Source: Limnothrix sp. FACHB-406 (GTDB lineage Bacteria > Cyanobacteriota > Cyanobacteriia > CACIAM-69d). Taken from it: a DNA stretch of 64,000 nt. Position numbers and translations under genes: made by a program. Positions 6,009 to 9,364 of this stretch are shown here, piece after piece (position 1 is the first letter of the stretch; each line of letters begins with the position of its first letter). The DNA lies in NCBI RefSeq assembly GCF_014698235.1, contig NZ_JACJSP010000010.1, forward strand, positions 62,001-126,000, written 5' to 3'. A model generated the notes under the pieces. That model was not told where the DNA came from. It worked only from the letters and a program-made list of their open reading frames with translations, and did not search any database.

Positions 6009-6761
6009 TTAGGCCAGGTCAAACAGCAACAGCTCCGCATTCTCGGAAGCCGTAATTTCCACCTGCTCCAGGGCCGTGATGGCCGCCGCGTCGCCCGCCT
6101 CCAGCATCACCCCATTCAGGGCGATCGCCCCACGAGCCACCTGCAACCATCCGCCACGCTCAGGGCTGGCAAATTGATGCACCACCCGATCGCCCGCCGC
6201 CAACGAGCTGGCAAAAATCAGCGCATCCTGATGAATCGTCACCGAGCCATCGCGACCATCGGGCGAAGCCACTACCCGTAACCGCCCCTGCTTGTCTTCC
6301 GGCGCAAAGAACACCTGCTCATAGCCCGGTTGCAAGTTGTTGCGATCGGGCAAAATCCAAATTTGCAACAGGTGCAGCGGCTCCGAATCCGACGCATTAA
6401 ATTCGCTATGCAAAATGCCCGTTCCGGCGCTCATCCGTTGCACATCGCCCGGCCGAATCAGGGAGCCGTTGCCAATGCTGTCCCGGTGCTCCAGCAACCC
6501 ACTCAGCACATAGGTCACAATTTCCATGTCGCGATGGCCATGGGTGCCAAACCCTTGCTTGGGAGCAATCACATCCTCATTGATCACTCGCAACGTCCGA
6601 AATCCCATGTGATTGGGGTCGTAGTAACTGCTGAACGAAAAACTGTGATAGCTATCCAACCAACCGTGATTGGCATGGCCCCGATCGCCCGATCGCCGAA
6701 TCGTGATGTTGCCCGCAGCGGTCGGGGCGATCGAGGCAGCAGCAGAAGACGAAATAGTCAT
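6009..6761 (-). CDS. Pirin family protein (YhhW-like bicupin)
   Basis: A 250-residue bicupin. The N-terminal cupin carries the pirin signature and metal-binding residues: [19 protein letters not shown], then [26 protein letters not shown] and [13 protein letters not shown]. The likely iron ligands are the two His of THGHRD, a later His (HSEFN) and a Glu. The C-terminal cupin is more divergent, as usual. Members such as E. coli YhhW have quercetin 2,3-dioxygenase activity in vitro; others act as redox-sensing cofactors. It lies downstream of a broken CDGSH gene on the same strand and opposite to an HxlR regulator, an arrangement that suggests a redox or electrophile-responsive cluster. Start chosen at 6761; a later Met is not apparent before the cupin. 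Confidence 0.95.
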
Positions 6762-7068: not shown

Positions 7069-7323
7069 CTAACCAGCCACCAGCGGCTGATGGGAACCAT
7101 CACAGAAAGGTGAATTTTGAGTTTGCTTGCAATTACAAATCGCGACCTTCTTCGTTTCTGTCACCTCAAAGGCGAAGGGCGTGAAGCTCGTTCCTTGGTG
7201 GGAACCATCGCAGAATTTCTTAGCAGCCGATCAACCACAAGTACACCAGAAATATTTTCCCGGTGTCAGTTCAATCACTTCAGGCTTTGTATCAGCAATC
7301 ACAGCCTCATTAGGAGCAGTCAT
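7069..7323 (-). pseudogene. CDGSH iron-sulfur protein gene interrupted by an in-frame TGA
   Basis: An 84-codon frame from ATG 7323 to TAG 7069-7071 encodes a small protein with two CDGSH cluster motifs. The first reads C27-T-C-G-stop-S-A-A-K-K-F-C-D-G-S-H; the second reads CNCKQTQNSPFCDGSH and is canonical. Codon 31 is TGA (7231-7233). Related bacterial proteins usually have Arg here (CGRS), so a single CGA to TGA change explains it. Everything downstream of the stop remains in frame with intact ligands, so the lesion is recent, is a sequencing error, or is read through. CDGSH proteins bind a labile 2Fe-2S cluster with three Cys and one His and act in redox or iron handling. The gene sits between pirin (same strand, downstream) and HxlR (divergent). 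Confidence 0.85.
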
Positions 7324-7744: not shown

Positions 7745-8230
7745 ATGATTACCCCGAATCCAGCACCCACCACAGGCTTCACGCGCCTCAGTTGTGCCGT
7801 TGAGACAACACTCAACATTATTGATGGGCGATGGAAAGTCCTGATTTTGCGCGAGCTATTTGCAGGAACCATGCGCTTTGCTCAACTGCGGCGAGCGCTT
7901 CAGGGCGTGACGCAAAAAATGCTGACCCAGCAGTTGCGGGAGTTGGAAGCCGATGGCATTGTTCACCGGCAAGTTTATCCAGAAGTGCCGCCCAGGGTGG
8001 AATATTCCCTCACGCCGCTGGGCGAATCCCTGTGGTCAGTGCTGGAAGCGATGCATACTTGGGGGCTGCACTATCAAACCGCCCAAGGCATCGCTGATCA
8101 TCCGGTTCATGGGGAACCAGCATTGCCACGTTTGCCGATCGACTATGGTGATCCAGGCTATGGCGCTCAAGACTTAGACAATCAAGACTCTGGCGATCAC
8201 AATCTGGATGCTCAAGACTCGATCGATTAG
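7745..8230 (+). CDS. HxlR family transcriptional regulator
   Basis: A 161-residue winged-helix protein; start at ATG 7745 gives the usual short N-terminus (an upstream Met at 7706 is less likely). The HxlR signature is clear: LSCAVETTLNIIDGRWKVLILREL, with the conserved redox-type Cys at residue 17, then MRFAQLRRALQGVTQKMLTQQLRELEADGIVHRQVY and PRVEYSLTPLGESLWSVLEAM. Family members bind DNA as dimers and often sense electrophiles or oxidants through that Cys. The final 40 residues are an unusual Asp/Gln-rich tail with repeats (AQDLDNQDSGDHNLDAQDS). It is divergent from the CDGSH and pirin genes and probably controls them; this is inferred from position. Confidence 0.93.
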   Translation: MITPNPAPTTGFTRLSCAVETTLNIIDGRWKVLILRELFAGTMRFAQLRRALQGVTQKMLTQQLRELEADGIVHRQVYPEVPPRVEYSLTPLGESLWSVLEAMHTWGLHYQTAQGIADHPVHGEPALPRLPIDYGDPGYGAQDLDNQDSGDHNLDAQDSID

Positions 8231-8463: not shown

Positions 8464-8919
8464 CTAAAGCGGCAAGAGCGATCGCTGACAGGAGGGGCAA
8501 ATGGCGTGGATGGTTAACTGGCAATCGAGCAGATGGTAGCCCTCTTTTTCCGATTGCTTAATTCCCATTTTCAAAACCGAATCGTTCTTGAATTCGATCG
8601 TTTTGTTGCACTTAACGCAAATTAAGTGATGGTGATGATGGGGATAGGGCTGATTCAGTTCGTAGTGCTTGTGGCCTTCTGCTAATTCCAGTTCGCGCAA
8701 AATGCCCATGCGCGACATTAATTTCAGAGTTCGATAGATCGTAGAAAGGCTGATGCCTTGGTCTTGCTCTTCAAGCAAGTGATACAGATCTTCGGCGCTG
8801 AGGTGGCGACCTTCGGGCAGATCCTTGAAGACATTAAGGATCACTTCGCGTTGGGGAGTCATCCGCCAACCGCGCTCGTTTAACTCGGCTTTTAGGGACT
8901 GTGGTGTGTAGGAAAACAT
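8464..8919 (-). CDS. fur: Fur family ferric uptake regulator (FurA type)
   Basis: A 151-residue metalloregulator starting at ATG 8919; the longer frame from 8991 adds 24 residues that do not look conserved. The N-terminal winged helix (LKAELNERGWRMTPQREVILNVF, SLSTIYRTLKLMSRMGILREL) is followed by the dimerisation and metal domain with the run HHHHHLICVKCNKTIEF, the pair C-V-K-C and a C-terminal CPSC. The sequence closely resembles cyanobacterial FurA as I remember it (LNERGWR-TPQRE and FKNDSVLK), rather than Zur or PerR. Fur-Fe2+ represses iron uptake and other genes. It is transcribed alone: the next gene on the same strand ends 445 bp upstream. Confidence 0.9.
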   Translation of the reverse strand: MFSYTPQSLKAELNERGWRMTPQREVILNVFKDLPEGRHLSAEDLYHLLEEQDQGISLSTIYRTLKLMSRMGILRELELAEGHKHYELNQPYPHHHHHLICVKCNKTIEFKNDSVLKMGIKQSEKEGYHLLDCQLTIHAICPSCQRSLLPL

Positions 8920-9364
8920 AGGGGTTGGCGAGGTTTGACCTGAAGCGTTTCCCTCTGCCAAATGGTAACAGGTATAAATGAGCATTTGCAAGAAGCTCGC
9001 ATTATTGAGAATAAATCTTAAGTCGAGTTTCAGAGAATGGGTCGCTGGGGTCTTCCCGGGCCGATCGCCCTGACGATCGGGTGAGCCATCAAGTTGTTGA
9101 GGGGTGGGGCTTTAGGGCGATCGCGCCGGAATCGGGCCGGGTCAATTGGAGGACGATCGCCCCTTTGCAAAAGTTTATAGATCCCGAGGGATCAGAGCGA
9201 TTAACTTGCGATTAAGGGCGACAACCACCCTGTTTAAATGCAGATCTTTGCAAATATGGGCGCGATCGGGACGCTAAAGCGACCAAAAAGGAGAAATTGC
9301 AGCGATCGCGCTGGTCATGGTTGGTGAATTGGCCGCCGAGGCCTGGGCGATCGCCCGGATTGAT
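8920..9364. promoter_or_regulatory. fur upstream region
   Basis: This 445-bp stretch lies upstream of fur and downstream of the next minus-strand gene. It contains several CGATCG cores, a small dyad GATCCCGAGGGATC near 9183 and an AT-rich block (GAGAATAAATCTTAAG, around 9008-9023) within 110 bp of the fur start. No reading frame or RNA gene is supported. An autoregulatory Fur site is expected for this family, but I could not identify one with confidence. Confidence 0.3.

Follow-up and report, generated by a model that had tools for sequence, protein, structure and literature searches.

Does a TGA codon inside an otherwise perfect iron-sulfur protein gene of the freshwater cyanobacterium Limnothrix sp. 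FACHB-406 mark a gene that has been lost, a gene that is read through, or a gene that was misread by the sequencer? The gene is predicted to encode a CDGSH protein and lies in a stretch of 64,000 nucleotides, referred to here as the window. A preliminary description of this DNA placed the TGA within the first cluster motif and left very recent loss, a base-call error and readthrough as its possible causes. Here, we compare the locus with its counterparts in two congeners, in 48 relatives and in genomes sampled across the phylum, and examine the genome for the components of recoding. Very recent loss emerges as the best supported of the three options, and the gene probably encoded a type 6 CISD protein until it recently became a nonsense pseudogene, of an ordinary kind.

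Results

Translation of the minus strand from 7323 to 7069 gives MTAPNEAVIADTKPEVIELTPGKYFWCTCG*SAAKKFCDGSHQGTSFTPFAFEVTETKKVAICNCKQTQNSPFCDGSHQPLVAG* (asterisks mark stops), with an ATG start, a single internal TGA and a terminal TAG, and so bears out the coordinates, the codon number, the CDGSH motif and the in-frame TGA of the preliminary description (Table 1). In the read-through frame, the two CDGSH motifs are CTCG*SAAKKFCDGSH and CNCKQTQNSPFCDGSH. All eight cluster ligands are present in this frame, at residues 27, 29, 38 and 42 and at residues 63, 65, 74 and 78 (C-x-C...C...H in each case), confirming that the ligands are intact on either side of the TGA. Consistently, the Pfam zf-CDGSH model matches the read-through protein in two stretches (E = 4.6e-19). 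No second copy of a CDGSH gene was found in the genome.

Table 1. Features of the CDGSH locus, in window coordinates
Feature	Coordinates	Strand	Remarks
Pirin (quercetinase-type) gene	6009..6761	minus	next downstream of the CDGSH gene; found beside CDGSH in many cyanobacteria
CDGSH gene with two CDGSH motifs, type 6 CISD-like	7069..7323	minus	84 codons and TAG, interrupted at codon 31
Codon 35, AAG (Lys)	7219..7221	minus	Gln in CACIAM 69d and 42 of 48 relatives; 0 of 48 with Lys
In-frame TGA, codon 31	7231..7233	minus	CGA in Limnothrix sp. CACIAM 69d
HxlR-family regulator gene	7745..8230	plus	divergent from the CDGSH gene; recurrent neighbour
Fur-family regulator gene	8464..8991	minus	directly after pirin in the congener without hxlR and CDGSH

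The two motifs lie about 20 residues apart in the read-through frame. Type 6 CISD or class II CDGSH proteins, such as MmCISD (PDB 3tbn) and human CISD3/Miner2 (PDB 6avj), likewise carry two motifs at this spacing and eight ligands on one short polypeptide, and the uninterrupted gene of a congener (see below) matches these two sequences with E values of 3e-18 and 2.3e-19, respectively. A fused glutamate synthase domain, which would denote type 5, is absent, as the frame stops at the TAG after 84 codons and the pirin gene follows. The window copy is unlike type 6 CISD proteins in having a stop inside motif 1, so that the full-length frame is interrupted at codon 31, and it is a broken rather than a working member of this type.

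The window genome was compared with two congeners, Limnothrix sp. CACIAM 69d (G001; contig MKGP02000063.1) and G002. In CACIAM 69d, the CDGSH gene (L017/L112) occupies the same locus, between hxlR and pirin, and contains no stop, providing an intact orthologue in a close relative. Its product is 96% identical to that of the window copy over 83 residues (95.7% identity in DNA), and the existence of so close an uninterrupted homologue indicates that the CDGSH frame did not arise by chance. CACIAM 69d has CGA at codon 31, Ser34, Gln35 and Asn84, whereas the window copy has TGA, Ala, Lys and Gly at these positions; a single C-to-T difference thus sets the two apart at codon 31, which supports the change that had been proposed from the window sequence. 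Ten codons differ between the two genes, six synonymously and four non-synonymously (the stop included), which are too few to show relaxed selection. Between the two genomes, DNA divergence is ~2-4% for most of the neighbouring genes and 10% for hxlR. In the six neighbouring genes that were compared, neither genome has an internal stop, and there are no frameshifts. The differences in the HxlR gene comprise 28 synonymous and 15 non-synonymous codons, far above those of its neighbours.

In G002, pirin is followed by fur (L102, 1501-2948) with ~170 bases between the matched stretches, and the hxlR-CDGSH block is missing. The counterpart of this gap in the window spans ~1.7 kb and contains both hxlR and the CDGSH gene. 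Together, the three Limnothrix genomes thus present the gene as intact (CACIAM 69d), stopped (FACHB-406) and absent (G002).

Across the phylum, a CDGSH match was found in 43 of 386 sampled genomes. This patchy distribution agrees with published surveys: class II CDGSH proteins were confined to a few cyanobacteria (PMC5859297), and types 5 and 6 were the dominant CISDs in Cyanobacteria (PMC3174974). An independent disruption within the family is found in G028, a single-contig genome, where TAA TGA interrupts the CDGSH frame (L024, 1480-1510, minus strand) immediately ahead of the second motif and the remainder of the motif can be read in a different frame, as results from a frameshift. Candidate internal TAG or TAA codons in G036, G013, G094 and G258 were rejected, as the residue-level alignments contain no internal stop and these codons are taken to be the regular stops with which the matches end. 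At L054 and L055, the CDGSH matches fall inside open frames of ~590-620 codons, consistent with the expectation for type 5 glutamate synthase fusions.

None of the 48 relatives has a stop within the matched stretch. At the position of codon 31, they encode Gln (12), Arg (11), Lys (8), Leu (5), Asn (3), Ser (3), Glu (2), Ala (2), His (1) or Tyr (1), and in no case Cys. The earlier statement that relatives have Arg at the site of the stop is accurate for the nearest congener and for the 11 relatives with Arg, but Gln is as common and the position is variable. Because it varies and is never Cys, codon 31 is a site at which many residues are tolerated, and nothing points to a redox role for it. 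Lys35 occurs only in the window copy, where most relatives have Gln, and may be read as a mild sign of relaxed constraint, though not a decisive one.

At 39 cyanobacterial CDGSH loci (L017-L055), a hand count within 1.5 kb found pirin at 21, hxlR at 14 and both at 10, all of which are lower bounds given that flanks of 1.5 kb are short. The linkage of CDGSH, pirin and HxlR suggests a shared redox or iron-related role, possibly in iron stress. Among the papers listed by our search of the literature for CDGSH selenoproteins or for a CDGSH-pirin-HxlR module, none was relevant.

The genome was also searched for the components of selenocysteine use and of stop suppression. No match to selA was found, and the best match to selB scored 183 bits, below the cut-off of 242, and covered model positions 1-265 only, which we take to be the part common to other translation GTPases. 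The preliminary description had proposed a search for Sec or suppressor tRNA genes, and neither was found in the genome. Eight matches to tRNA-Sec were obtained, all under the gathering score of the family and called as Ser, Arg, Gly and Tyr tRNAs by ARAGORN, and no UCA-anticodon (suppressor) tRNA is present among the tRNAs at the 42 tRNA loci of the genome. Over the 60 nt that begin with the TGA, the sole hairpin is one of 5 bp, and a SECIS-like fold was not detected, the sequence folding slightly less well than its shuffled versions (z = +0.95, with 166 of 200 shuffles folding at least as well). Around the CDGSH gene, all Rfam families stayed below their gathering scores.

Discussion

We infer that the living strain does carry the TGA and that translation terminates there. 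A C-to-T transition would have converted CGA (Arg31) to TGA in the gene for a small, predicted two-cluster [2Fe-2S] protein resembling CISD3/Miner2. Translation would then end after 30 residues, and of the eight ligands only the two leading Cys of motif 1 would remain. With the product truncated at this point and most ligands lost, no cluster protein would be made, and the rest of the frame would still be intact because too little time has elapsed. Bacterial nonsense pseudogenes likewise show a single transition to a stop, an intact remainder, an intact orthologue in a close relative and absence from another, and we see no difference between these and the window copy. Counting against the pseudogene reading, the gene has only a single disabling change, with no frameshift, no deletion and every ligand codon intact; no decay is visible so far beyond one or two codons. 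To judge from its distribution, the gene is dispensable, being absent from the third Limnothrix genome, frameshifted in G028 and matched in a minority of the sampled genomes.

The main rival to a recent nonsense pseudogene, which we consider unlikely, is an error of base calling or assembly at the TGA, with an intact gene in the living strain. A lone transition in an otherwise perfect frame, at a codon that is CGA in the congener, speaks for such an error. However, the assembly of 38 contigs is rated 100% complete and 0% contaminated, and given the real divergence of most neighbouring genes from the congener, one further difference more likely reflects a real change. The freedom of the six neighbouring genes from internal stops and frameshifts points the same way, as does Lys35, which lies near the TGA at a near-invariant Gln and fits real relaxed constraint, though neither is decisive.

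In the congener, codon 31 is part of a CGATCG site, a sequence that forms the core of the HIP1 repeat and is a possible target of C5 methylation. Within the window (1-64000), CGATCG occurs 418 times, where ~19 occurrences would be expected from dinucleotides; GCGATCGC (HIP1) occurs 79 times, compared with 2 expected. A methylation hot spot was considered and rejected, as the outer C of CGATCG shows a C-to-T change at 3 of 162 sites between the two genomes, which is not raised over the background of 3.4%.

The readthrough or selenocysteine option of the preliminary description draws no support from the tRNAs of the genome, from the search for Sec genes, from RNA folding at the site or from the conservation of the residue, and leaky readthrough and recoding are remote even when taken jointly. 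If the UGA were subject to ordinary leaky readthrough, with tRNA-Trp as one candidate, full-length protein would be produced at a low level and would possibly still be useful. Many residues, Tyr among them, are tolerated at codon 31, so Trp might be accepted there as well, and the frame 3′ of the TGA is intact; yet none of the 48 relatives has a stop at codon 31, and the genome offers no suppressor tRNA and the site no local structure, making such readthrough very improbable. It is just as doubtful that a leaky UGA, placed where many residues are tolerated, keeps a two-cluster iron-sulfur protein at a low dose beside the HxlR regulator. A UGA read as selenocysteine would yield a CxCGU-type redox-active CDGSH protein, and the TGA does adjoin cysteines in a redox protein, but this recoding is not supported by our analysis and we treat it as ruled out, its probability being close to negligible: selA is missing, selB is below its cut-off, the tRNA-Sec matches are ordinary tRNAs, the downstream sequence folds no better than shuffled sequence and matches no Rfam family, and the Cys homologues that mark the UGA position of selenoproteins are lacking (0 of 48). 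In addition, Cyanobacteria appear to lack Sec use according to a review (PMC9312934). Reassignment of TGA is dismissed, as TGA ends 13 of the 49 long open reading frames of the window and prfB (release factor 2) is present over its cut-off. In Limnothrix sp. FACHB-406, TGA is thus a working stop.

As a single event, the loss of this gene matters little, adding one more loss to a patchily distributed NEET-type protein. The recurring surroundings of the CDGSH gene across cyanobacteria, with pirin and a divergent HxlR gene, are of some use. Moreover, the intact, stopped and absent states of the CDGSH gene in three Limnothrix genomes provide a natural comparison for testing the role of the gene.
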